Source: Natrinema sp. HArc-T2 (lineage in GTDB: Archaea; Halobacteriota; Halobacteria; Halobacteriales; Natrialbaceae). From it: DNA of 64,000 nucleotides. The DNA lies in assembly GCF_041821085.1 (NCBI RefSeq), contig NZ_JBGUAZ010000002.1:310001-374000 (forward strand). The letters run 5' to 3'. The position numbers and the translations under genes were made by a program. The notes beneath the pieces were generated by a model. That model was not told where the DNA came from and searched no databases. It saw only the letters and a program-made list of their open reading frames with translations. This document shows positions 14,050 through 27,469 of the stretch, piece by piece; within the stretch, counting starts at the first letter, position 1; each line of letters opens with the position of its first letter.

Positions 14050-14524
14050 TGTGACGACTGGCGGCGGTACTGCTTTTGAATCGATCGTCTGTGAGCACTC
14101 GAGACCGGCATGTAGACGAATGTCAACATCCGATCGACCCGACAGCGTGCGGTGGCAATATCTGCCGCGCGCAAGCGACGGGACCCCGAGACGCCCCTCC
14201 ACAGCGGGCGATGACCGATAGTGTTCCCACAGAGACGTCGCATCGACGATCGACAGGGGTTGACAAACCCGTAGAATATAACTGCCGCGCGGAATCGTCC
14301 CCGTTGCTGAGTACCTTATACACATTATACTTGACTAAGCTTTGGGCGCATGAACCTATTACAGCCAGTATTCTGGACGAACAACAACGCTAATCCTTAA
14401 ATGGTACAAGAGCAACGAGTCAAAACGTGATTTGGAACACGAACGCGGTGCAGATTGCAGAAGAAAAGCACGATCGTCTGGTCGATAGGGGGCGCAGTGC
14501 GTGGAGCCACGAGGTGACCGCCTG
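14050..14524. other. 475-base gap before the ammonium transporter
   Basis: No convincing gene. It contains several TATA-like words (ATATAAC near 14275, TTATACACATTATAC near 14317, CTTAAATGG near 14395) and a 9-codon frame at 14401-14430 that could be a leader peptide but has no supporting feature. A GGGTT/AACCC mini-hairpin is near 14257. The region from 14300 to 14440 is AT-richer than its surroundings, as expected for a regulated promoter of the nitrogen-controlled gene downstream. Confidence 0.5.
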
Positions 14525-16180
14525 ATGGATGCGACGCTCCTGCAGGCCGAGACCGAGCTGCTGATGGAGTCGATCAACTACACGTGGATCCTGATCGCCA
14601 CGTTCCTGATCTTCTTCATGCACGCCGGCTTCGCCATGCTCGAGGCGGGGCAGGTGCGCTCGAAGAACGTCGCGAACCAGTTGACGAAGAACCTGCTGAC
14701 CTGGAGCGTCGGCGTGACGGTGTTTTTCCTCATCGGTGTCGGCGTCGAGGGCGTCGTCGCCGGGAGCGGCTTCACGCCCGGGTTCCAGAGCGACGCGACC
14801 GGCTGGATGGACTGGCTGTACGGTGCAGTCTTCGCGATGACCGCCGCGACCATCGTGTCGGGTGCCGTCGCCGGACGGGCAAAGCTCCGTGCGTACGTCA
14901 CCTACACGTTCCTGCTGGCGGCGGTCATCTACCCCGTCGTCACCGGGCTCACGTGGGCCGGCGGCTACATCGAGACGATCACTGGAACGCCGTTCGCTGA
15001 CTTCGCCGGCGGCATGATCGTCCACGGGATGGGCGGCATCGCCGGTCTCACTGCGGCGTGGGTGCTCGGCCCGCGTATGGATCGGTACAACAGCGACGGC
15101 ACCGCGAACGTCATTCCCGGTCACTCGCTGACCTTCGCGGTTCTCGGGACCCTGATCCTCGCCTTCGGCTGGTACGGCTTCAACGTCGGCACGTCGGCGA
15201 TCATCGACATGGAAAACGGCGTCTTCCTCGGCGACCAGCTCGGTCGCGTCGCGATGACGACGACGATCGCGATGGCCTGCGGTGCGATGGGTGCCGGCCT
15301 CGTCGCCTGGCTCAAGACCGGCAAGGTCGATACGCTGTACGTTGCCAACGGCCTGCTGGCCGGCCTGGTCGGTATCACGGCGATCCCCAACACCACCGCG
15401 TGGTGGGGCGCGTTCGTGGTCGGCGGCCTCGCTGGCGCACAGCTACCGCTGGTCTTCGAGTTCGTCGAACAGTACCTGAAGATCGACGACGTGTGTGCGG
15501 TCTTCCCCGTCCACGGCTCGGCGGGCATCCTCGGAACGCTGCTGTTCCCGTTCGTGGCCGCCCCAGGCGTCGTCGACAGCGTCGCGAACGCGTTCGTCGC
15601 ACAGCTCACCGGCGTCGTCCTCATCAGCGCCTGGACGATCGCGACCACGGCCACTATCTGGTACGCGTTCAAGGCGGCCGGTCAGGCCCGCGTCTCGGCT
15701 GCACACGAACGCGACGGGCTCGACGTCTCCGAACACGGCGTCGACACCTACCCCGAGTTCGGCCAGCCCGACGTCGCGACCGACGGCGGCAGCGCCGACG
15801 AGGTCATTCGTACCGATGGGGGCGAGCCGACCGACGGGCAGATCAAGATGGTCACGGCGATCGTCCGCCCCGACCGCCTCGGCCAGATCAAGACCGCCCT
15901 CGCCGACGTCGGCGCACCGTCGCTGACCGTCACCAACGTCTCCGGACGAGGCTCCCAGCCCGCCAAGAAAGGACAGTGGCGCGGCGAGGAGTACACGGTC
16001 GACCTCCACCAGAAGGTCAAAATCGAGTGTGTCGTCGCCGACATCCCGGCTGGTGACGTCGTCGACGCCATCCGCGGAGCCGCCGAGACCGGCGAACCCG
16101 GCGACGGCAAGATCTTCGTCATGCCCGTCGAGGACGCGATGCAAGTCCGGACTGGCAACACCGGCCCGGACGCCGTCTAA
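14525..16180 (+). CDS. amtB: Ammonium transporter fused to a PII signalling domain
   Basis: A 551-residue fusion. Residues 1 to about 400 form the eleven-helix Amt/MEP channel, with family blocks [17 protein letters not shown] and [14 protein letters not shown]. After a linker of about 40 residues, positions 440-551 form a complete PII (GlnK/GlnB) domain: [13 protein letters not shown], the T-loop with RGEEY (Tyr at domain position 51, the modified residue of bacterial PII), KVKIECVV, and [13 protein letters not shown]. Normally GlnK is a separate protein that plugs the channel. The start at 14525 has a strong GAGGTGA Shine-Dalgarno at 14511-14517; the GTG at 14501 would destroy that. Confidence 0.92.
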
Positions 16181-16288
16181 CTCGAGATCGCCGGGATCAC
16201 AGTCCGCTTTCCGGGCCGACTTCGGCCATCGAGCAGTACCACTCGACTCGACAGAGAGCAGGATCGCAATCGCGTACTGCGCCAGAAC

Positions 16289-16405
16289 TTACTGCAGATC
16301 CTGCAGTTGTCGTTCGAGTCGGCGCAACTGCCGCTGCATATAGAGTAGATACGCGAACAACACCACGAACACGGACCCGTAGCCGGCGAGGAGAAGAGTG
16401 TCCAT
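16289..16405 (-). CDS. ccmD: CcmD-like heme exporter small subunit
   Basis: A 38-residue protein made of one membrane helix (LLAGYGSVFVVLFAYLLY) followed by a basic, glutamine-rich cytoplasmic tail (MQRQLRRLERQLQDLQ). This is the usual form of CcmD, which attaches to the CcmABC complex and helps release holo-CcmE. It begins one base after the stop of ccmC on the same strand, so the two are translationally coupled. Identity rests on size, topology and position, because CcmD sequences are poorly conserved. Confidence 0.75.
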   Translation of the reverse strand: MDTLLLAGYGSVFVVLFAYLLYMQRQLRRLERQLQDLQ

Positions 16406-16406
16406 C

Positions 16407-17129
16407 TTACCGCACCTCTTCTTTCTGAAGGATGATTTTATCTTCGATTTCGTGGAGTCGGATACGAATCGCCATCACGTAGATGTAGAGCAACGCCAGC
16501 GCAAGAAACGAGATCCCGAGGATCAGCGGATCGATGTTCGCACTCACGCTCGAGTTCGCGATCGTCGGCTCGTGAAACGTCGGCGACCAGAGTCGACCGG
16601 CGGTGTACGTAATCGGGACCGTGACGAACGCGACGACGCCGTACACCGCGGCAAAGCGCTCGTCGCTTCCCCGTTCGGTCGAGGCATAGACGGCGAGATA
16701 GCCAGCGTAGATCAGCCAGACGATCAGAAACGTGACGAGCCGAATGTCGCTCCACTCCCACCAGGAGTTCCACACGACTCGTCCCCACATACTCCCGGTC
16801 GCGAGCGTCAGTGTCGCGAACAGAAAGCCGATTTCACCGCCGCTGTGTGCGAGGCGGTTCCAGAAGCGTCCCTCGTACCGAAGATACAGCAGGCTCCCGA
16901 TAAACGTCGTCGACAGCGCAAACGCGGTGAGAAACGCCAGTGGAATGTGCCAGTACGCAATGAGATTGATCCCGTGTTCGATACCGTACATGGTCCGGGA
17001 GGCGACGCCGAAGACCAGCGCAAGCGAGACCAGACCGAACGCAAACGCCCCCCACCTCACGACCCGACTCCACATAACCCAGTGAAACAGGCGGATGAGT
17101 GACGCGAGCTGTCGAGAGAACGTACGCAT
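16407..17129 (-). CDS. ccmC: Heme exporter/handling protein CcmC
   Basis: A 240-residue membrane protein of the CcmC/CcsA family with about six helices. The tryptophan-rich heme-handling loop is visible as WGRVVWNSWWEWSDIRL (residues about 113-129), flanked by histidines HIPLAF (about 61) and HEPTIAN (about 189) that should be the axial ligands. CcmC loads heme on to CcmE at the outer face of the membrane. It lies directly upstream of ccmD and downstream of ccdA on the same strand. Confidence 0.88.
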   Translation of the reverse strand: MRTFSRQLASLIRLFHWVMWSRVVRWGAFAFGLVSLALVFGVASRTMYGIEHGINLIAYWHIPLAFLTAFALSTTFIGSLLYLRYEGRFWNRLAHSGGEIGFLFATLTLATGSMWGRVVWNSWWEWSDIRLVTFLIVWLIYAGYLAVYASTERGSDERFAAVYGVVAFVTVPITYTAGRLWSPTFHEPTIANSSVSANIDPLILGISFLALALLYIYVMAIRIRLHEIEDKIILQKEEVR

Positions 17130-17172
17130 ACCGCAGTACTTGAAAGCGCCTGACTTAGTTTTTTTCCAGTCG

Positions 17173-17859
17173 TTATCCGACGAGCACTGCCAGAATCGCT
17201 TTGTCGAGTTCGAACAGCAGGCCGATGCCCGTCACGACGAGTGCGTACCCGCTCACTCGGCGGATCAACGCGGGCCGCTCGAGCGCGCGGACACGAGTCG
17301 TGAGCAGCGTACTCGCCCGTTTCCCGCCGTAAGCAACGGCTAGCAGCGGGCCCGAGAACCCGACACCATAGGTGAACAAAAGCGTCGCGCTCCGCGTTAC
17401 GTCACCGGACGTCCCAACGTATGCGAGAACACTGCCGAGGACGGGGCCGACACAGGGAAGCCAGATAATGCCGAGAAACAGGCCCAAGACGAAGCCACTG
17501 ACGAGTGGGTGTTGCGTGTTCTCGACGGACCTCGTCACTCGAGACGCCGGGCCAGTGATCCGTGAGGCAGCGGTCGTGTAGGCGTCGTGGAGGTCGTCGT
17601 CGGCCATGACCGCGCCGAACGCAATGATCAGGAGCACGAACGGCACTCTGAGTGTCTCCGGCGTCACGGCACTGAGCAGTGACGTGATAATGCCGAGTGC
17701 AGTAAACGAGGCGATACTCCCCGTGACGATCGACACCGGTCGCAGTCGGTGGCCAGCACTGCCCGCAAGAAGCGGCGGAATCATGGGGAGACAACAGGGC
17801 GTCAGCGCAGTCAACGTCCCTGCAACGAAGACAGCGACGAGTCCGGCCACATCGAACAT
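17173..17859 (-). CDS. ccdA: CcdA/DsbD-like thiol transporter for cytochrome c biogenesis
   Basis: A 228-residue membrane protein with six hydrophobic helices. The two redox cysteines of CcdA are present, one in LTPCCLP (residues about 20-26) and one in WLPCVGPVLG (about 131-140), each followed by proline as in the family. CcdA passes electrons from cytoplasmic thioredoxin to the outer face, keeping the CxxCH cysteines of apocytochrome reduced. It lies 43 bases upstream of ccmC in the same direction, and a thioredoxin-fold partner is encoded nearby at 19273. Confidence 0.85.
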   Translation of the reverse strand: MFDVAGLVAVFVAGTLTALTPCCLPMIPPLLAGSAGHRLRPVSIVTGSIASFTALGIITSLLSAVTPETLRVPFVLLIIAFGAVMADDDLHDAYTTAASRITGPASRVTRSVENTQHPLVSGFVLGLFLGIIWLPCVGPVLGSVLAYVGTSGDVTRSATLLFTYGVGFSGPLLAVAYGGKRASTLLTTRVRALERPALIRRVSGYALVVTGIGLLFELDKAILAVLVG

Positions 17860-17934
17860 GGCACGACGTTGTAATACGAGCCAAAAGAACGTGCTGGATC
17901 CGAGACCGACGGATCCGCGGCGACGATCGACGAT

Positions 17935-19110
17935 CTAACCGTCGATCGATTCGTTTCGAAGCGGCTGGTCGTAGTACTCGACGTCGTCGGGGATGTCGCT
18001 CTCGTTGAGCGATTCGGTCCCGGTCGGGATCCCAGCCAGCTCGAGTTTCTTGCGCATCGGGTTCATGTCGTAGCCGAGTTCTTCCTGCGTCCGCGGGTAG
18101 TAGATGCCTTCTTCCGGCGGTCCGGTCGTCGGGAAGTCCTGCTCTTTCTCGACGAACGCGGGGCGGTCGTGGCCGTTCATGTAGCCGGCGATATCCTGGA
18201 CATCGTCCCAGTCACTCACCGTATGCGGCGTGCCGTACGGCATCGACTCGCGGATGAACGACGCCGAGGTGTACATCCGGCTCATGCCGGCACCATCGTT
18301 GAACGCGTCCGGCCCCCACAGTGGGGGTGCAGTTCCCTCGATTCCCTGTCCATCATCGCCGTGACAGGAGGCGCAGTTCTCGAGGTAGAGTTCGGCACCG
18401 CGCACGGGGTTGACCTCTTCGATCGGTTTCTTCTCGTCACCCTCGGGCTTGTTCAGGTGTGACCAGTAGGGCTGGCCCTTCACTGGCACGCCTTCGCTCA
18501 GCCACTGCATGTACGCCTCCATCGCCTGCATCTCTCGGCTGTCGTAGGCTGGCGTCCCCTCGGGGGAGTCCTGGGAGTTCATACTCCGGTCGAAACAGCC
18601 CATCAGGCGCTGGCGCGAGTCGCGCATGCGGTCGCGTCGAGACGTCCACTCCGGCAGGTCCGCGTGGGTACCCACGAGCGGAATCATGTCGATATCCTGC
18701 CCGACCATCCCCTGTGTCATCCCATAGCGCGGGTCAGTGCCGCCGTGGCAGCTGGCACAGGAGAGCTCGTTGCCGACGTGTTCCGGCATCGCCTGGGAGG
18801 TGTTTTGCATGAGTTCACGCCCGTAGCGAACCATCTCGCGCTCCTGTTCGTTCGAGGGGAGCGTCGAGTCGTTCATCTCCTTGGGGGAGAACTGGACCTC
18901 GTCACCGGCGGTCGCGTTCCGGTACTCGAAGTTGTCTTTCGAGTCGCCTTCTCGGAGGTCTTCGTCGAGCACTTTCCGATCGGGCCACTCTTTGGGGAGT
19001 TCAGTCGTCTCGTTGGACTCTTGTCCGCCGGGTACCGCCGGCGCGGCACAGCCGGCGAGGGCGATTAAGACGACAACACCCAGTAGAGCGAGATGATTGC
19101 GATTTGTCAT
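17935..19110 (-). CDS. Diheme c-type cytochrome lipoprotein, TsdA-like
   Basis: A 391-residue secreted lipoprotein: hydrophobic signal and lipobox LAGC (Cys 21), an acidic linker, then two heme c sites, CASCH at 118-122 and CASCH at 246-250. Between them is GCFDRSMN (Cys 172). That block matches my memory of thiosulfate dehydrogenase TsdA, in which a cysteine acts as an axial heme ligand. The expected role is oxidation of thiosulfate to tetrathionate or another outer-face electron transfer. It is the obvious client of the surrounding maturation genes, and c-type cytochromes are rare in haloarchaea. The exact substrate is inferred. Confidence 0.85.
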   Translation of the reverse strand: MTNRNHLALLGVVVLIALAGCAAPAVPGGQESNETTELPKEWPDRKVLDEDLREGDSKDNFEYRNATAGDEVQFSPKEMNDSTLPSNEQEREMVRYGRELMQNTSQAMPEHVGNELSCASCHGGTDPRYGMTQGMVGQDIDMIPLVGTHADLPEWTSRRDRMRDSRQRLMGCFDRSMNSQDSPEGTPAYDSREMQAMEAYMQWLSEGVPVKGQPYWSHLNKPEGDEKKPIEEVNPVRGAELYLENCASCHGDDGQGIEGTAPPLWGPDAFNDGAGMSRMYTSASFIRESMPYGTPHTVSDWDDVQDIAGYMNGHDRPAFVEKEQDFPTTGPPEEGIYYPRTQEELGYDMNPMRKKLELAGIPTGTESLNESDIPDDVEYYDQPLRNESIDG

Positions 19111-19272
19111 CCCGCATCACCTCTGGTTGTGATCCACAACTGATTTCGTCTCTGCATATTGCCATATATAACAACTGATGATTAAACATTTATGGTCGGC
19201 AGAAATTCACGCTAGTGCTAGATTTCAGAACCACTGCAGCGAGTGCTGATCGAGACACAAGGGACAAGTAAA

Positions 19273-19752
19273 ATGTCAATCTCGCCGAGAAAGGTATTTA
19301 CTATCACGATATTCATCGCAGCGATCGGAATCGGCTACTATTCGATGAACGCGGCACCGGTACTGAGCGACGACTCCCACACGTATCACGGAGACACGGA
19401 GTGGCGAACTGATATCGACGACGCACAGCAGCTCGCTGCCGAGCAAGAGAAGCCGCTGTTGATCTACTTCTGGACGACCTGGTGTACGTACTGCGAAGAC
19501 TACAACGCGAACGCGTACTCCGATCCAGCCGTCCTCGAGCAACTCGACGAGTTCGTCCTCCTCGCAGTCAATCTCGAGGACAACAGTCAACAGGCTGGTG
19601 CGCTCCAACAGCAGTACAGCGCGAACTATCCGCCACAGCACGTCGCCGTCACGCCGGACGGCGAGGTCCTAGTCGAAATCAACGGCTACGCCGAGACGGA
19701 CGCGTTTCAGGGCTATCTGGATGAGGCACTCGAGGAGTGGGAACGCCAATGA
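19273..19752 (+). CDS. Membrane-anchored thioredoxin-fold protein (CcmG-like role)
   Basis: A 159-residue protein with an N-terminal membrane helix (residues about 9-25) and an outward thioredoxin domain holding the active site WCTYC (C71, C74). The cis-proline region is seen in YPPQHVAVTPDGE. By position it probably reduces apocytochrome cysteines with electrons from CcdA, as CcmG/ResA do; its domain resembles the SoxW/DUF255-like thioredoxins more than classical CcmG. The start at 19273 is favoured by MSISPRK directly before the helix. Its stop overlaps the ccmF start (ATGA), so the two are coupled. Confidence 0.8.
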   Translation: MSISPRKVFTITIFIAAIGIGYYSMNAAPVLSDDSHTYHGDTEWRTDIDDAQQLAAEQEKPLLIYFWTTWCTYCEDYNANAYSDPAVLEQLDEFVLLAVNLEDNSQQAGALQQQYSANYPPQHVAVTPDGEVLVEINGYAETDAFQGYLDEALEEWERQ

Positions 19753-22181
19753 TGGGTGGAACGCTCCTGATCGGCGCCGCGGTACTGTCCGGTCTCGCGG
19801 CGACGGTCCTCCTCTTTGCGAACTATCTCCGACGTGAAGAGCGGTATCTCGACGCCGTTACGCCACTGATCGGCACGACCGCCGGGCTGCTCAGTCTGGC
19901 GCTTGCCTATCTAACCTACCAGTTCGTGACCACCGATTACGCGAACGCGTACGTCTGGAACAATACTGCGAACTACATTTCGCTCTTCTATCGGATCACT
20001 GGTGTGTACGCGGGGAATCAGGGCTCGATTCTCCTCTGGGCAGCACTAACGGCCGTCGTCGCGTTCTGGGCCGTCGCCGTTCGCGGCCTCGAGCGCCGTG
20101 AGACGCGACTCGTCCAGGGGATCACGATGGGGGTCGTAACGTATTTTGCGGCGATGCTTGTGCTTGACAGTCCGTTCAAGCCGATTTCGTCGGAGTTCCC
20201 GGAGATGGATCCGGGATTCGTCCCGATCGACGGAACGGGACTCAATCCGCTGCTCATCGATCCGTATATGGCGATCCATCCGCCGATCATGTTCATCGCC
20301 TACGCGCTGTTGACGATGCCGTTTGCCATCGCCGTCACCCACTTCATCTCGACGGTTCGCGGGGAGGACGGCCTCTTCGAGGAGTGGATCGGAAGCGTCA
20401 CACGCTGGCTGCGCATCGCGTGGTTGTTTTTGACCGCGGCTATCACCCTCGGCTCGCTGTGGTCGTATCGTGTGCTGGGCTGGGGCGGTATCTGGGCGTG
20501 GGACCCCGTCGAGGTCGCCGTGTTGATCCCGTGGCTGTTCCTCACGGCGACGCTCCACGCGGTGATGAACTATCGCTCCCGGTCGACCTATGCGACGCTT
20601 GCGCCCGCGATGACCGGGGCGACGCTCGCACTCATCGTCTACGCCACGGCGATCGTCCGCAGCGGCGTGTTCCGGAGCGTCCATTCGTTCGCCGATGGCG
20701 GCATCGGCGCTGCACTGCTGGTGTTGCTGGCGATCACGTCGATTCTCGGCATCGGACTGCCGCTTGGATACTGGCTCCTCCGTGAGCCGGAGACGGCGTC
20801 TGAGACAGCGGCGGACACATCGCAGTCCCAGCAATGGGTTTCGCGTGTGAACCTGAAACACCTCGCGGTCCTGAGTATCGGGCTGCTCGGCTTCGTCTCG
20901 GTCTGGGGCCTGACGTTCCCGGTGCTCAACGCCTCCGTGACCGGCGTCGAAGTCGAAGTCGGCGGGCAGTACTACAACCTCTGGAGCTACCCGATCGTCC
21001 TCGGCGTGTTACTCGTCCTCGGGTTCTACATGGACTACGACGTCGAGGGCCGTCGGCGCGCGCTGATCTCGCTGGGGATCTTCTCGCTGTTGACCGTCCT
21101 TGCGGCCCTGATCGCACCCAGCGAGACGTGGACGTTGTCGAACGTCGATGGCAGCGACGCGCTGTTGTACCGACTCGTCGGGAACGCGAGCGCGCTGTCG
21201 ATTCTCCCGCCAGCAGCGTACGTCTGTCTGACGGTCATCAAGCGAACGCTCGAGTTCGTCCCCGGCAACCCGAATCGAAACTTCCAGCTCAAGCAAGTCG
21301 GGATCACGATGATCCACGTCGCCTTCGCGCTGCTCGTGGTGACGGTGACCTTCTCCTATCTCTTTACGGCCCAATCGTCGCTAGTCGTCGCCGACGCCGA
21401 CCGCGAAGCGACGATCGAGGGTTCGGCTGTCCACGAGGTCCCAGACTCCAACTACGCGGTCCAGGTATCCGACTACCGCTCGTATCAGCGTCCCGAAGAG
21501 CCGAACGTCGAAAATATGGCGCTCTCGAGCGAGCAGATCGTCTCTCGCGGACAGGAGATCCACGAGACGAGACAGCCGGTCTACGGCACGGCGACGCAGA
21601 TAAACACCGGGCCGAACGCAACTGTCATTCAGCTCGATAACTCGGGCATCTGGATCGGTGCGATGAACGCGAGTCAGACCGAACTCGGGATCTCAGAGGG
21701 CGATCAAGTCGTCGGCGTCGGCACCGTCATGTGGGACTTCCTGCCAAACATGCCACAGTCCGACGGCGTCGTCGTCACCGAGGCGGCAAACGTCGGCCCG
21801 GTCTCGAACCCACCGACCGCACTCGACCAGACGCGTGTCGAGGGAACTGCAGTCGGACTCACCGTGTACCAGAACGGCGAGCAGATCGCCCGCGGTAACG
21901 CCGGTCAGGAACAGTACCGCCAGCAGGGTGGGATGGAGGTCCGCGACGTGCTCGTTGACCGCGGCCTGACCCACGACACCTACGTCATCGCAGCGGTCGA
22001 CGATGGGACCGTATCGCTGACAGTCAAGCAGATCCCACTGATGACCGTGATGCGTCTCAGTGTCGGCGCCCTGCTGCTGGGCATGCTCCTCGTGATCGTG
22101 TTCGATCCCGCACACGGGCTCGCCCGACTCTGGCCACAGGTCACGCGCCAGCAAACCACCGCCGAAACTACATCAGACTAA
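19749..22181 (+). CDS. ccmF: Cytochrome c heme lyase subunit CcmF
   Basis: An 810-residue multi-span protein, the largest component of system I cytochrome c maturation, which moves heme from CcmE to apocytochrome. The signature heme-binding loop is WGGIWAWDPVEVAVLIPWL (residues about 253-271), and the YAGNQGSILLW block near residue 87 is also characteristic. A periplasmic-side beta domain of about 250 residues lies near the C-terminus before the last helix, as in other CcmF proteins. Start is the ATG inside the preceding stop codon. Confidence 0.92.
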   Translation: MMGGTLLIGAAVLSGLAATVLLFANYLRREERYLDAVTPLIGTTAGLLSLALAYLTYQFVTTDYANAYVWNNTANYISLFYRITGVYAGNQGSILLWAALTAVVAFWAVAVRGLERRETRLVQGITMGVVTYFAAMLVLDSPFKPISSEFPEMDPGFVPIDGTGLNPLLIDPYMAIHPPIMFIAYALLTMPFAIAVTHFISTVRGEDGLFEEWIGSVTRWLRIAWLFLTAAITLGSLWSYRVLGWGGIWAWDPVEVAVLIPWLFLTATLHAVMNYRSRSTYATLAPAMTGATLALIVYATAIVRSGVFRSVHSFADGGIGAALLVLLAITSILGIGLPLGYWLLREPETASETAADTSQSQQWVSRVNLKHLAVLSIGLLGFVSVWGLTFPVLNASVTGVEVEVGGQYYNLWSYPIVLGVLLVLGFYMDYDVEGRRRALISLGIFSLLTVLAALIAPSETWTLSNVDGSDALLYRLVGNASALSILPPAAYVCLTVIKRTLEFVPGNPNRNFQLKQVGITMIHVAFALLVVTVTFSYLFTAQSSLVVADADREATIEGSAVHEVPDSNYAVQVSDYRSYQRPEEPNVENMALSSEQIVSRGQEIHETRQPVYGTATQINTGPNATVIQLDNSGIWIGAMNASQTELGISEGDQVVGVGTVMWDFLPNMPQSDGVVVTEAANVGPVSNPPTALDQTRVEGTAVGLTVYQNGEQIARGNAGQEQYRQQGGMEVRDVLVDRGLTHDTYVIAAVDDGTVSLTVKQIPLMTVMRLSVGALLLGMLLVIVFDPAHGLARLWPQVTRQQTTAETTSD

Positions 22182-22184
22182 CCC

Positions 22185-23354
22185 ATGAGAAAAACAGTCC
22201 TCGGCTTCGTCGTCCTCGTATCGCTCCTGACCGTCCCCATGACCGCAACTGCCGCGTCGGTTTCGGGAACCGTAACCGTCGCCGACGGTTCTGCCGACGG
22301 TGAGACGGTCACGATCGCGCCACTGGACCCCAGTAACGAACTCGTCGGCAACGCAACCGAAACGACGGTCGAAGACGGCTCGTTCACCTACGAGTCCGTC
22401 GAGGGTGCCATCACCTACTTCATCGAACTCGAGCACGAGGGTACGACACACTACGCCCTCGTCGACGACGGTGAGCAACCCGCGTTCGTCCTGAACGACA
22501 CGATCTCGGGCGAACTCGTCGACGAGAACGGCACGCCGATTTCGAACGCCACCATCACCGTCACGAGCCAGCACGGTCCCGAGGTGACACAGGTGAACGC
22601 GACGGATGGCTCGTTCACGATCGGCCCGGTCCAGCCCGATCGAATGTACACCCTCGAGATCGAGGCGAACGGCGCCGACTACGAGCGGGTGGTTTCGACC
22701 GGAAACGACACGACGGACACGACCTTCGAGTTGCCGACGCCGACGACTGATCGAGACGCACTGACTCTCGGTGGTGGCCAACCAGTGAACCACCTCCTGC
22801 GTGTCGGGCCGACACAAAACGGGACCGGGCTGTTCGTCGTCGAGACGGTTTCCGTCGAGAACGGCGCCGATCGACCGTTCGCCGGCAACGTCAGCTTTGC
22901 AGTGCCGTCAGACGCAGAGGTCGTCACGGGAATGGTCGACAACGAACGCACCGCGGTCAGCCGAACGAACGACACGGCGACGGTCGAGACGACGATCGGC
23001 CCCCAGGAAAACGCTACCGTCGACGTGTTCTATCGACTCGAGGACCGGGCGTTCGAGAAACCGGTCGGCTACGACGTCGAGCAACTCGCGATCCAGTTCG
23101 CCGAATACGACCTGACTCAGGTCGAGGTCTCAGACAACCTCGTCGAAGCCGACGCGCCGATGCCGATGGTGACGAGTACGGGGCCGCTCGAGGCGGACGA
23201 CCAGATCTCGGTGAGCATCACCGAGTCCAATCAATCGGTCGCCAGCGATCAGACAGACGGCGGTTCGGGGACCGGCGAGTTCCCGCTCGGTCTGGTGAGT
23301 CTCGGCTTCGTCGCCGTCATCGCGATCGGATTGGCCGCGTATCGGTACCTGTAG
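22185..23354 (+). CDS. Secreted, membrane-anchored beta-sandwich protein linked to ccmF
   Basis: A 389-residue protein with an N-terminal signal peptide, two carboxypeptidase-regulatory-like beta domains (about residues 25-100 and 100-175), a further beta-rich region, a Ser/Gly/Thr linker and a C-terminal membrane helix followed by YRYL. It starts 3 bases after the ccmF stop, so co-translation with ccmF is likely. No cysteines are visible in the outer part, which rules out a simple CcmH thiol role. It may stabilise the heme lyase or hold the apocytochrome. That role is inference from position only. Confidence 0.75.
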   Translation: MRKTVLGFVVLVSLLTVPMTATAASVSGTVTVADGSADGETVTIAPLDPSNELVGNATETTVEDGSFTYESVEGAITYFIELEHEGTTHYALVDDGEQPAFVLNDTISGELVDENGTPISNATITVTSQHGPEVTQVNATDGSFTIGPVQPDRMYTLEIEANGADYERVVSTGNDTTDTTFELPTPTTDRDALTLGGGQPVNHLLRVGPTQNGTGLFVVETVSVENGADRPFAGNVSFAVPSDAEVVTGMVDNERTAVSRTNDTATVETTIGPQENATVDVFYRLEDRAFEKPVGYDVEQLAIQFAEYDLTQVEVSDNLVEADAPMPMVTSTGPLEADDQISVSITESNQSVASDQTDGGSGTGEFPLGLVSLGFVAVIAIGLAAYRYL

Positions 23355-23504
23355 GCTGACTTGCTACCGGCGGGGGACCAGCGACCGATTCACAGCGGTT
23401 GATTTCGTTCAGATTTTGCTGAACCAGCCAGTATGTAGCTGTGCGGATGCCGCACTGCCAATTACATCAGAAGTTATATAACTTATATTTATTAATAACT
23501 CAGT

Positions 23505-23939
23505 ATGGTCTCCGACCATACTCCCTCCAGCGAAGCGTTGTCACGTCGAAAAATCCTTGCATCCAGTGCAGTGATTGGTGCGACCGGGCTTGCAGGGTGT
23601 TCAAGTAATGCCAGTTCTGATTCCCCTGACTGTACGACAACCGCTCTCGAACACGGTGACGGAGATGTCCTACAGCAAGCGAGTGCTATGATATCCGATG
23701 AATCAGTTGCACTGCTGATCTCATTGCAGGAATCAGGTAACACACACCCTATTGAGTCAATTCTTCTCAAGAACTCTGAAGGCGATCTCCTAAACGAAAT
23801 CCCCACAACCGATGCTCGTGAATACCGTATCACTATTGGCTCACCACCACACCATGGTCGCCTCACACTACTCGCTAAAAACGACCAAAGCGACGAAATC
23901 GACTCAATGGAAATCGAATACCACTGCACTGATGAGTAA
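23505..23939 (+). CDS. Small Tat lipoprotein of low GC content
   Basis: A 144-residue predicted lipoprotein. The signal SRRKILASSAVIGATGLAGC has the twin arginine and lipobox, cleaved before the cysteine near residue 32. The mature part is a compact beta-rich domain with two remaining cysteines (SPDCTTT and EYHCTDE) that could form a disulfide. Codon use is clearly richer in A and T than the neighbours (AAT, AGT, TCA, GAT are frequent), as is the flanking DNA from 23390 to 24010. This suggests recent acquisition, inside the cytochrome island. I do not recognise the family. Confidence 0.7.
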   Translation: MVSDHTPSSEALSRRKILASSAVIGATGLAGCSSNASSDSPDCTTTALEHGDGDVLQQASAMISDESVALLISLQESGNTHPIESILLKNSEGDLLNEIPTTDAREYRITIGSPPHHGRLTLLAKNDQSDEIDSMEIEYHCTDE

Positions 23940-24041
23940 CTAATTCATCTGAGCTCTGCATTCGCTGGATTATGACTCCATCAATCAGTCGTTAGGAAAG
24001 TCACCACCCCTAACTGATTTGGTGAAACGGATCAAAACGGC

Positions 24042-24731
24042 CTATCGTTCGACGACGTACTCGAACAGCGCGATCCCGATCAGGAACAACACGCCGTCGT
24101 AGGCCAGCAGGAGCCGGAACCACTGCCACAGCGGCAGTCCTTCTGAGATCGCCCGCGTGAGTTCGACGCCGGCGAGCAACACCGGAATCACGAGCGGCAC
24201 GAGCAACAGCGGCAACAGGAGGTCGCTGAGCCGGGCTCGAGCCGTCATCGTCGCGATGAGCACGCCGGTCGCGGCGAAACCAAACGCCGCGAGGGCGATG
24301 ACGAGCAACAACAGCGGGACCGTGCCCGGCAGGATGGTAAAGTCGAGGAAAACGACGATACACCCGAGCGTGATGACGGCGACGGCCCCCGTGAACGCGG
24401 TGTTGCTCACGACTTTGCCGACGTAGATCGCCGAGCGATCCACGGGAACGAGCAACAGGCTGTCGAGGCCGGCGTCGGCCTCTTCGACGGCGACGCTCTG
24501 GCTCACGCTGAACGTCCCGGCGAAGACGAACGCGACCCAGAGCGCACCGCTCGCGACGACGTCGATGTTCGCGAACGTGCGGGCGAAACTGAACGCGAAG
24601 ATGATGACGACCAGCAGCGCGAAGACGGCTGCGGTGTTGAGCACCTGCTTGGAACGTAACTCGATGCGGAAGTCCTTGCGCGCGACCTCGAGGACGGTCC
24701 GCCAGTAGCTGACGGTGGTATTGTCGGTCAT
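24042..24731 (-). CDS. ccmB: Heme exporter permease CcmB
   Basis: A 229-residue membrane protein with six helices. The family N-terminus is recognisable: RTVLEVARKDFRIELRSKQ with the charged RKD stretch, then the SQSVAVEEADAGLDSLLLVPVDR cytoplasmic motif. CcmB forms the membrane part of the CcmAB ABC transporter that helps release CcmE-bound heme. The gene overlaps the ccmA stop by 4 bases in the same direction, giving the operon ccmE-ccmA-ccmB. Confidence 0.87.
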   Translation of the reverse strand: MTDNTTVSYWRTVLEVARKDFRIELRSKQVLNTAAVFALLVVIIFAFSFARTFANIDVVASGALWVAFVFAGTFSVSQSVAVEEADAGLDSLLLVPVDRSAIYVGKVVSNTAFTGAVAVITLGCIVVFLDFTILPGTVPLLLLVIALAAFGFAATGVLIATMTARARLSDLLLPLLLVPLVIPVLLAGVELTRAISEGLPLWQWFRLLLAYDGVLFLIGIALFEYVVER

Positions 24732-25432
24732 TGCAGGTTAGAGCGACCGACCGCCTCGAGATATTCGGTCTCGAACGAGTGGCGGTCGAGGTCGGTCAGC
24801 GAGACGGTTCGTTCCAGCGTGCCGTCGACGAGTACGAGTGCGCGGTCACAGTCGTCGACGGCCCGCTCGAGGTCGTGAGTCGCGATGACGACGGTTCGAT
24901 CGTCGAACCGCGTCAGGATCCGCTGGAGGTCCATCGCCGACCGCTGGTCGAGGCCGGCGTACGGTTCGTCGAGCAACAGGACCGTCGGGTCGTGCAACAC
25001 TGCACGCGCGATCGAGAGGCGCTTGGTCATACCGTGCGAGAAGTCCTCGACGCGGGTCGAGGCGTGCGTTCGGAGGTTCACGTCCTTGAGGACCCGTTCG
25101 ACGCGCTCTGTATCGACGCTTCGCAGTCGGGCGTGCAGTCGCAGGTTCTCGCGGGCGGTAAGCGTGCCGTAGACCATCGGTCGATGGCTGACGACGCCGA
25201 GTTTCGCACGAACCGCAGTCGCGTCCGGCGTCACGTCGTCGCCGTCGATCCGGATGCGACCGTCGTCGGGGGCGGCAAGCGTCGACAGCAGTTGCATCAG
25301 GGAGGTTTTTCCTGCGCCGTTGGGACCGAACAGCCCAACGTGCTCACCGGAATCGACGGTAAAAGAGACATCACGGAGCGCGGTCGTCGAGCCGAGCCGT
25401 CTCGTCACGCCATCGACGCTGATCGTCCCCAT
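24728..25432 (-). CDS. ccmA: Heme exporter ATP-binding protein CcmA
   Basis: A 234-residue ABC ATPase. Walker A is GPNGAGKT (residues about 36-43), the signature is SHGMTKRLSIARAVLHDPT, and Walker B is VLLLDEPYAGLD, followed by the switch histidine in VIATHD. SHGM replaces the usual LSGGQ, as is common in CcmA. ATP hydrolysis drives release of holo-CcmE from CcmC. The start at 25432 lies 4 bases past the ccmE stop; longer in-frame extensions would run through ccmE and are rejected. Confidence 0.9.
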   Translation of the reverse strand: MGTISVDGVTRRLGSTTALRDVSFTVDSGEHVGLFGPNGAGKTSLMQLLSTLAAPDDGRIRIDGDDVTPDATAVRAKLGVVSHRPMVYGTLTARENLRLHARLRSVDTERVERVLKDVNLRTHASTRVEDFSHGMTKRLSIARAVLHDPTVLLLDEPYAGLDQRSAMDLQRILTRFDDRTVVIATHDLERAVDDCDRALVLVDGTLERTVSLTDLDRHSFETEYLEAVGRSNLQ

Positions 25433-25436
25433 GTCG

Positions 25437-25841
25437 TTATGCCTGTTCGGTCGGTGGCATTTCAGTACTGTTGGTACTGTTTCCGTCACCGCCGCCTTCG
25501 TGGGCCCGAACGGAGAGTTCGGATGCGTCGACCGAGCCGTCCTCGACAGTTCCCTTCGCGACGACGATCCGGCCCTCGGCCATCGTCTCGGGCATCGCCC
25601 CGTCGTAGACGACGTCGACGGACGTGTTGTTATCCGTGACAGCGAACCGGATCTCGTTACCGTCTTGTTCGAGGTTGGCGACTTTGCCCTCGAGGTTGAC
25701 CCACTCGCCATCGTAGTCGCCGTTCTCGAGTGAGGTCGGCGTGACGAACTCCGCGGACGCGTTCATGACCGTCGTTCCGAGAACACCGAAGAGTAACACG
25801 ACGCCGACGCCGGCGAAAAGTAACTTACTCCTTCGTTTCAC
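25437..25841 (-). CDS. ccmE: Heme chaperone CcmE, variant lacking the conserved tyrosine
   Basis: A 134-residue membrane-anchored OB-fold protein: N-terminal helix (about 7-24), then beta strands EWVNLEGKVANLEQDG and VDVVYDGAMPETMAEGRIVVAKGTV typical of CcmE. In bacterial CcmE a histidine binds heme covalently within an HxxxY motif; some archaeal and other CcmE proteins use CxxxY. Here the histidine is at 114 (RAHEGGG), but the position four residues later is glycine and no tyrosine follows. The tail is a disordered Gly/Ser/Thr stretch. It heads the ccmE-ccmA-ccmB operon. Confidence 0.85.
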   Translation of the reverse strand: MKRRSKLLFAGVGVVLLFGVLGTTVMNASAEFVTPTSLENGDYDGEWVNLEGKVANLEQDGNEIRFAVTDNNTSVDVVYDGAMPETMAEGRIVVAKGTVEDGSVDASELSVRAHEGGGDGNSTNSTEMPPTEQA

Positions 25842-25888
25842 GTCCGAATATGTCTGATCGGACTATTTCAATCTTGGCGTGTGTTATA

Positions 25889-25964
25889 GTAGCCACTGAC
25901 AGTCAATGCACATCTGATCGCACGACTGCTGTGCGATCGGTGTGTAAACCGTTTCAGTTGTTAC
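25889..25964. repeat. 76-bp dispersed repeat, copy 1
   Basis: This 76-base segment matches the reverse complement of 54327-54402 at 68 of 76 positions, with no gaps. It contains a palindromic CACTGAC/GTCA-type left part and an 8-bp hairpin GATCGCAC...GTGCGATC (25917-25924 with 25932-25939, loop GACTGCT). The right end GTTTCAGTTGTTAC is nearly invariant. It lies between ccmE and hemL, which point away from each other, so it sits in a promoter region. Confidence 0.75.
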
Positions 25965-26122
25965 GATAGTGATTTCTGTTACATTCCCGTCGGACGATCA
26001 GCTCTCGGACGGACTGGCGTGAACCACGATCCCGAACGGACACGACCCGAACGCGGGCGACGGACGACGCGTCGCGACCCAACCTCGGTACTCCTTTCCC
26101 GTCCGACTCCGAAAGGGCGCGC

Positions 26123-27469
26123 ATGACCGACGACAACTCACGCGAGCTGTACAATCGGGCGCTGTCGGTGCTGCCCGGTGGCGTCAACTCCGCCGTTCGC
26201 GCGGCGATCGAACCGTATCCGTTCTTCGTCCAGAAAGGCGACGGCGGCCACGTCATCGACGCCGACGGGAACCGCTACATCGACTGGGTAATGGGGCTCG
26301 GCCCGCTGCTGTTGGGCCACGATCTGCCAGAACCCGTCCAGGCGGGCATCCAGCAGAAAGCAAGCGAAGGGCCGATGTATGGGACGCCGACGGAGATCGA
26401 AGTCGACCTCGCGGAGTTCGTCGTCCGCCATGTCCCGAGCGTCGAGAAGCTCCGCTTCGTCAACTCCGGGACCGAAGCGACGACCTCCGCCGTGCGCCTC
26501 GCACGGGGCTACACCGGTCGGAACAAGATCGTCGTCATGCAGGGCGGCTACCACGGCGCACAGGAGTCGACGCTGGTCGAAGGCGACGCCGACAACCCGA
26601 AACCATCCTCCGCCGGCGTTCCGCAGTCGTTTGCCGACCACACGCTTCCAGTACCGTTCAACGACGAGGAGGCCGTCCGCGACGTGTTCGAGAAACACGG
26701 CGACGACATCGCGGCCGTAATGACCGAGCCCATTCTGGGCAACTATGGCATCGTCTACCCCGAAGACGGCTATCACGAGTTCCTCCGTGAGATCACCGCA
26801 GAACACGGCTCGCTGCTGATCTTCGACGAAGTGATTACGGGCTTCCGCGTCGGTGGCCTCGGCTGTGCCCAGAGCGAGTTCGGCGTCACGCCCGATCTCA
26901 CGACGTTCGGCAAGATCATCGGCGGCGGCTTCCCCGTCGGTGCGATCGGCGGTCGCGCCGAGATCATCGAGGGCTTCGCACCGACCGGCGATGTCTTCCA
27001 GGCCGGCACCTTCTCGGGTCATCCAGTCACGATGGCCGCCGGCCTCGAGACGCTACAGTTCGCCGCCGAAAACGATGTCTACGACCACGTCAACGGGCTC
27101 GGTGACCGACTCCGCAGCGGCCTGACCGACATCGTCGCCGACCAGGCCCCCAGCTACACCGTCACCGGCACCGACAGCATGTTCAAGGTGATCTTCACGC
27201 GCGAGGGCCCAGGACCGGACTCGCTCGAGGAACAGTGCACCGCCGGCTGTCGGCAGGACCCGACCTGTCCGCGCTACGACACCTGTCCGAAAAACGCCGG
27301 CGACGTGAAAAACGCCGAGACCGAGCGCTGGCGGCGCATCTTCTGGGGCCAGATGAAAGACCAGAACGTCTTCCTCTCGCAGAACCAGTTCGAGTGTCAG
27401 TTCGTCAGTTACAGCCACACCGAGGAAGACGTCGAACGGACGCTCGAGGCCTACAAGGAAGCGCTGTAG
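26123..27469 (+). CDS. hemL: Glutamate-1-semialdehyde 2,1-aminomutase
   Basis: HemL converts glutamate-1-semialdehyde to 5-aminolevulinate, the first committed tetrapyrrole precursor in the C5 route. The 448-residue PLP enzyme has the N-terminal family block [10 protein letters not shown], the phosphate-binding [15 protein letters not shown], and the PLP lysine in [16 protein letters not shown] short cysteine-bearing insertion near the C-terminus ([18 protein letters not shown]) is a haloarchaeal addition and could bind a metal. It starts the tetrapyrrole cluster; HemA is not in this window. Confidence 0.95.

Follow-up and report, generated by a model that had tools for sequence, protein, structure and literature searches.

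Homologues of thiosulfate dehydrogenase (TDH; cluster-28) lying beside cytochrome c maturation (CCM) genes are described from five haloarchaeal species in the accessible text of Kletzin et al. (2015; PMC4429474), and since it was published there, the core association of TDH with ccm genes is not new. The locus studied here, positions 16289-25841 of a 64,000-nt stretch (the window) from the 3.73-Mb genome of Natrinema sp. HArc-T2, resembles those loci in its cytochrome family and its operon-like arrangement. What is added here to the account in that text is the motif of CcmE, a CcmD, a protein here named Ig3, the insertion site, co-occurrence over hundreds of genomes and a link to 'Natronorubrum thiooxidans', i.e., a variant maturation set, Ig3, the insertion site and a candidate gene for haloarchaeal thiosulfate oxidation. 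The island is probably a horizontally gained module making one extracellular, membrane-anchored diheme cytochrome c of the TsdA type.

Compared with bacterial TsdA (Allochromatium vinosum, 4v2k/4wq7; Campylobacter jejuni), the haloarchaeal proteins share the two CxxCH hemes, the Cys ligand of heme 1, the Arg/Arg/Ser thiosulfate contacts and the heme-2 Met. They differ in having a membrane anchor (lipobox or N-terminal helix), added N- and C-terminal regions, Ser or Ala before the heme-2 Met, an island without a TsdB partner and a ccm set of their own. The closest described maturation system is the streamlined System I of Methanosarcina acetivorans (PMC9084895), a source in which archaeal CcmE is stated to be universally of the CxxxY type and CcmD to be uniformly absent from archaea. 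The haloarchaeal set likewise consists of CcmABCEF without CcmH, whereas CcmD is present, CcmE carries RAH(E/D) instead of CxxxY, CcmF is unsplit, and CcdA and a thioredoxin are encoded within the cluster.

The island and its diheme cytochrome

The cytochrome is probably a thiosulfate dehydrogenase/tetrathionate reductase of the TsdA type. Its residues 90-328 match A. vinosum TsdA (PDB 4v2k; phmmer, E=1.2e-38), and it comprises the domains PF21342 (SoxA-TsdA, 115-210) and PF00034 (237-312), with a CxxCH in each. The active-site residues of the A. vinosum enzyme, i.e., R109, R119, C123, S127, G221 and R224 (PMC4423706), correspond in the alignment to R158, R168, C172, S176, G275 and R278, all of which, together with the heme-2 Met M290, are invariant in 23 haloarchaeal TsdA sequences. 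C172 aligns with the Cys axial ligand of heme 1, and R158, R168, S176 and G275 align with thiosulfate contacts. In TsdA generally, a Met as the sixth ligand of heme 2 is strictly conserved and catalysis runs both ways (PMC5146829). The signal sequence is Sec-like, without a twin arginine, and has an LAGC lipobox, which is replaced by an N-terminal hydrophobic anchor in about half of the TsdA relatives. When the genome was searched with PF00034 (Cytochrom_C) only, the sole matches were the two domains of TsdA, and a scan for further cytochromes with the pattern CxxCHG gave counts below those of the reversed control.

Around this gene, ccmD, ccmC, ccdA and tsdA lie on the minus strand, trx-ccmF-Ig3 run divergently on the plus strand, and ccmB, ccmA and ccmE are again on the minus strand:

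16185-26053: inserted segment of about 9.87 kb, with amt on one side and hemL on the other
16289-16405 (-): CcmD-like protein, 38 amino acids (aa), single transmembrane (TM) helix; NCBIfam TIGR04391 CcmD_alt_fam, 35.7 bits (cut-off 24)
16407-17129 (-): CcmC, predicted heme delivery to CcmE; PF01578, E=6e-19; W..W..W.WD
17173-17859 (-): CcdA, predicted electron supply across the membrane; PF02683, E=2.5e-17
17935-19110 (-): probable TsdA-type diheme cytochrome c lipoprotein, 391 aa; two CxxCH, LAGC lipobox
19273-19752 (+): membrane-anchored outward thioredoxin with a putative role of the CcmG/DsbD-C type; WCTYC; PF13899, E=1e-12
19737-22181 (+): CcmF, predicted cytochrome c heme lyase; TIGR03145/TIGR00353, E about 1e-60, the TIGR00353 match (E=1e-58) falling under the curated cut-off of that model
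22185-23354 (+): Ig3, 389 aa; signal helix, beta-sandwich domains and C-terminal TM helix
24042-24731 (-): CcmB, predicted heme ABC exporter permease; PF03379, E=5e-29
24728-25435 (-): CcmA, ABC ATPase; PF00005, E=3e-34; TIGR01189, 125.5 bits (cut-off 131.6)
25437-25841 (-): CcmE, predicted heme chaperone, GTG start; PF03100, E=4e-13, 50 bits; RAHE in place of HxxxY/CxxxY

The System I components CcmA, B, C, D, E and F are all present, and the WWD motif and the His residues are retained in CcmC and CcmF. Among 40 haloarchaeal CcmC, 95% or more keep the WWD motif, His61 and His186, and CcmF has WGGxWAWDPVE together with the conserved His181, 202, 274, 316 and 527. Residues C22, C23 and C136 of CcdA are conserved, as are, in 41 sequences, C81 and C84 of the thioredoxin (numbered from an upstream GTG at 19243). 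The GC content of the island is 60.6%, against 64.4% for the window. A preliminary description of this DNA had listed ccmD, ccmC, ccdA, the cytochrome, the thioredoxin, ccmF, ccmB, ccmA and ccmE, each of which was found where it had been placed; the 389-aa gene directly 3' of ccmF had been overlooked. The two CxxCH motifs had been recorded rightly, whereas the TsdA identity, the absence of CcmH and the odd CcmE motif had gone unnoticed. The same description had called the system 'complete-looking', which holds for the archaeal form without CcmH and not for the form with it: CcmH (PF03918) was found in none of the 40 ccm-bearing haloarchaeal genomes, while the same profile was positive in 4/14 control genomes.

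Between Ig3 and ccmB there is a small, lipoprotein-like open reading frame (ORF; 23505-23939, +). No relative of it was found in any other island compared, its GC content is 49%, and it was left out of consideration.

Among the island carriers, the named relatives closest to the window are Natrinema hispanicum, Natrinema limicola and Haloterrigena sp. H1. A scan of genome contigs also located the full island in 'Natronorubrum thiooxidans' HArc-T, with a TsdA about 80% identical. The accessible text of PMC8530250 traces this name to a paper by Sorokin et al. from 2005, 'Oxidation of thiosulfate to tetrathionate by an haloarchaeon'; such oxidation by a haloarchaeon was thus reported in that year. 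The link between island and phenotype is a correlation from one strain. A literature search found no paper that assigned a gene for haloarchaeal thiosulfate oxidation or tested a haloarchaeal TsdA, and tsdA is a single testable candidate gene for the oxidation of thiosulfate to tetrathionate in N. thiooxidans.

Distribution and insertion of the island

Co-occurrence was assessed in 391 Halobacteria genomes, TsdA being counted at E<1e-100 (three weaker matches are fragments) and MauG above the Pfam cut-off. CcmC/CcmF were present in 40 genomes, TsdA in 26 and a MauG-type peroxidase in 14, with TsdA and MauG together in one genome, G037. All 39 genomes with TsdA or MauG fall within the 40 with ccm (Fisher p about 1e-53, relatedness not corrected), and none of the 26 TsdA genomes is without ccm (Fisher p about 1e-30, phylogeny ignored). 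The fortieth ccm genome, G346, encodes two multiheme cytochromes within the stretch that holds its ccm genes, one octaheme (Multi-haem_cyto) and one tetraheme, so that every sampled ccm-bearing haloarchaeon has a candidate client. These multiheme genes (PF13447 for the octaheme one) lie at L105:6867-8654 (+) and L105:11184-12071 (+); haloarchaea are stated in the accessible text of PMC4429474 as not known to harbour multiheme cytochromes, and Haloferax volcanii is reported there to be without ccm. Two further genomes, G319 (L079/L082) and G325 (L085/L087), have the TsdA island twice each.

The amt gene ends at 16180 and hemL starts at 26123, with the island between them. In eight relatives the site is empty. 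Seven of them are congeners, and the eighth, G370, has its island at another place. The alignment to the window stops at 16178-16184 and picks up at 26054-26082, and nothing of the island lies between. Judged by this empty site, the block was gained as a unit in this lineage. Only 3/21 of the sampled genus members carry the island; the islands of other genera sit in different surroundings, and no hem genes were detected in the 20-kb stretches around them. The gene at 14501-16180 (+), which adjoins the insertion site, reads in translation as an ammonium transporter apparently fused to a PII-like regulator.

The preliminary description had suggested a self-contained module for one cytochrome, possibly acquired as a block and with hemL directly beside it. 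The first two suggestions are supported by the empty site and by the distribution, in which TsdA never occurs without ccm, the only other clients encoded beside ccm are MauG and, once, multiheme cytochromes, and ccm is not present in most haloarchaea independently of the cytochrome. As for hemL, it does adjoin the island, which in this lineage entered the DNA between amt and hemL, but it was ruled out as a part of the module; it is a neighbour of the insertion site, and amt and hemL are adjacent without the island in the eight relatives. The comparison of gene trees which that description had called for gave the same picture. The patristic distances of nine island genes correlate with one another at Spearman 0.70-0.96 and with those of HemL, by itself a weak proxy for the species tree, at 0.49-0.65, and once HemL is controlled for, TsdA still shows partial correlations of 0.68-0.81 with the other island genes.

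Outside the Archaea, Salinivenus iranica and a Bacteroidota metagenome-assembled genome (L144, L145), both halophilic, have a tsdA 52% identical. No other island gene was detected beside it; PF01578 genes occur on other contigs. Since halophilic Bacteroidota carry so similar a tsdA, its exchange between halophiles is likely, in one direction or the other.

The maturation set and Ig3

Judged by their sequences, the haloarchaeal CcmE and CcmD run contrary to the 'universal' statements published for archaea. The window CcmE contains no cysteine, CxxxY being absent, and its tail, LSVRAHEGGG (LSVRAHEGGGDG), has His114 without a Tyr four residues on, so that HxxxY is absent as well. The His is found in 42/43 aligned proteins from haloarchaeal stretches, the sole exception (L106) apparently holding no true CcmE. 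The Tyr of HxxxY shows no conservation. RAH(E/D), on the other hand, is the conserved form of the motif in haloarchaeal CcmE, with RAHN in L067 and KSHE (KSHEQ) in the divergent G346. A broken or truncated CcmE in the window was ruled out, as the RAHE ending is common to other haloarchaeal CcmE. An in-frame TGA in several CcmE matches was likewise dismissed, the readable genes ending there and the aligner having overrun the stop into the tail. Many MauG-type CcmE have HEGEH, the second His of which is missing from the TsdA type; Allen and co-workers are said to have noted HxxxH in two halobacterial CcmE in 2006, which fits the HEGEH of the MauG-type sequences.

In a profile alignment, R112 of the window CcmE falls on K129 of E. 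coli, which places His114 one residue past E. coli His130. The AlphaFold model is a membrane-anchored OB-fold whose C-terminal tail is of low confidence from residue 114. It matches E. coli CcmE 8ce8_E with Z 13.2 and a root-mean-square deviation (rmsd) of 1.3 over 86 residues, and 1sr3 with Z 13.6 and rmsd 3.6 over 90 residues; these two are its best VIA matches. Other OB-fold proteins score up to Z 12.7, so the family assignment leans on sequence as well. For CcmD, TIGR04391 matches 19/19 scanned haloarchaeal sequences, and a small TM ORF resembling it directly follows ccmC in every readable island.

Ig3 is restricted to genomes with TsdA. It was found in 26/26 of them, in 0/14 ccm genomes without TsdA and in 0/40 genomes without ccm; it lies directly 3' of ccmF and covaries with it (Spearman 0.96). 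Its AlphaFold model (mean predicted local distance difference test score, pLDDT, 82.8) starts with a signal helix, continues with beta-sandwich domains and closes with a C-terminal helix. Compared with PDB folds, it gave no close match but generic beta-sandwich matches with low TM-scores, and no function was read from these.

In G037, the TsdA island groups ccdA, tsdA, trx, ccmF and Ig3, and in the MauG island mauG is accompanied by a second ccmF and by ccmA, B, C and E; the whole genome contains two CcmF, one CcmC and one CcmE (loci L071, L100). The simplest reading is that heme delivery would be shared and that CcmF and Ig3 would be dedicated to TsdA. In E. coli, NrfEFG is a dedicated heme lyase for NrfA. 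The haloarchaeal arrangement suggested by G037 would resemble it in having a second CcmF-like lyase for one client with heme delivery shared, and differs in that no CcmH-family (PF03918) protein was found and that a beta-sandwich membrane protein is encoded next to ccmF as its partner. A replacement of CcmH/I by Ig3 is a guess, and Ig3 could alternatively dock TsdA or its electron acceptor. A third kind of System I, in which the heme of CcmE is held by the lone His of RAH(E/D) and a client-specific CcmF-Ig3 lyase has Ig3 presenting the apocytochrome instead of CcmH/I, is put forward as a tentative idea.

Proposed route and its alternatives

Based on these results, apo-TsdA would probably be exported unfolded by Sec, given a signal peptide without twin arginine, and then anchored as a lipoprotein, which is consistent with heme attachment outside the cell. 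CcmAB and CcmCD would load heme on CcmE outside the membrane, probably via His114 of RAHE, while CcdA and the outward thioredoxin would hold the CxxCH cysteines reduced. CcmF without CcmH, perhaps with the adjacent Ig3, would then attach both hemes. In the mature enzyme, two thiosulfates may be coupled at heme 1, with its Cys ligand, to give tetrathionate, the electrons passing on through heme 2, with its Met ligand, and into the respiratory chain; alternatively, the reaction may be reversed.

Some observations weigh against this picture. The heme-2 Met is preceded by Ser or Ala here and by Lys in A. vinosum or Asn in C. jejuni, and the island lacks an electron acceptor of its own (TsdB or cytochrome c4). 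HArc-T is the strain of Sorokin et al. only by the citation in the accessible text of PMC8530250. The trees of TsdA and the ccm genes are similar and not identical (Spearman 0.77-0.88), and the covalent heme step on CcmE is uncertain, both published heme-binding motifs being absent. The direction of the reaction is unreadable from sequence, since the TsdA family is bidirectional and Ser or Ala stands before the heme-2 Met. This bidirectionality, and a heme 2 that, as in the C. jejuni enzyme, is probably Met-ligated without an adjacent Lys, would suit a protein that, like its Campylobacter counterpart, serves chiefly to reduce tetrathionate, in anaerobic respiration at the cell surface. Such a role is doubtful, though worth serious consideration: most haloarchaea live aerobically, and the haloarchaeon whose name is tied to thiosulfate-to-tetrathionate oxidation is among the carriers. 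The substrate could also be something other than thiosulfate (another thiol or sulfane compound, or plain electron transfer), with merely the SoxA/TsdA fold in common, as the match to characterised TsdA is limited to residues 90-328 and the C-terminus (about 330-391) is conserved only in haloarchaeal and close halophilic Bacteroidota sequences. This is quite unlikely in view of the thiosulfate-contacting residues, none of which varies; among them is the Ser that all TsdA share and SoxA lacks.

One ccm set can in general serve many clients, and a homologous set is used by the MauG islands, so that the link with TsdA might be operon convenience only. It is very improbable that several cytochromes are served here, with TsdA the sole Cytochrom_C match in the genome (PF00034 search), no TsdA genome without ccm, and the complete TsdA island held twice in G319 and G325. 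The grouping of island sequences largely by family could possibly be caused by vertical inheritance from a haloarchaeal ancestor, with loss in most lineages. This is unlikely as an account of the locus, because the site is clean and empty in seven congeners and one other relative, the location differs between genera, and the island trees match one another more than that of HemL. Gain in this lineage and an older inheritance elsewhere can both be true.

With the module read as a means of making a TsdA-type cytochrome, the gene behind the thiosulfate-to-tetrathionate activity of haloarchaea is now directly testable, since a related strain linked to that oxidation carries the same block. As both published rules, on CxxxY in CcmE and on the absence of CcmD, are broken in them, the haloarchaeal ccm sets offer a natural way to learn which components heme attachment cannot do without. 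The arrangement in G037 and the restriction of Ig3 to TsdA genomes suggest a route to a one-client lyase without CcmH.

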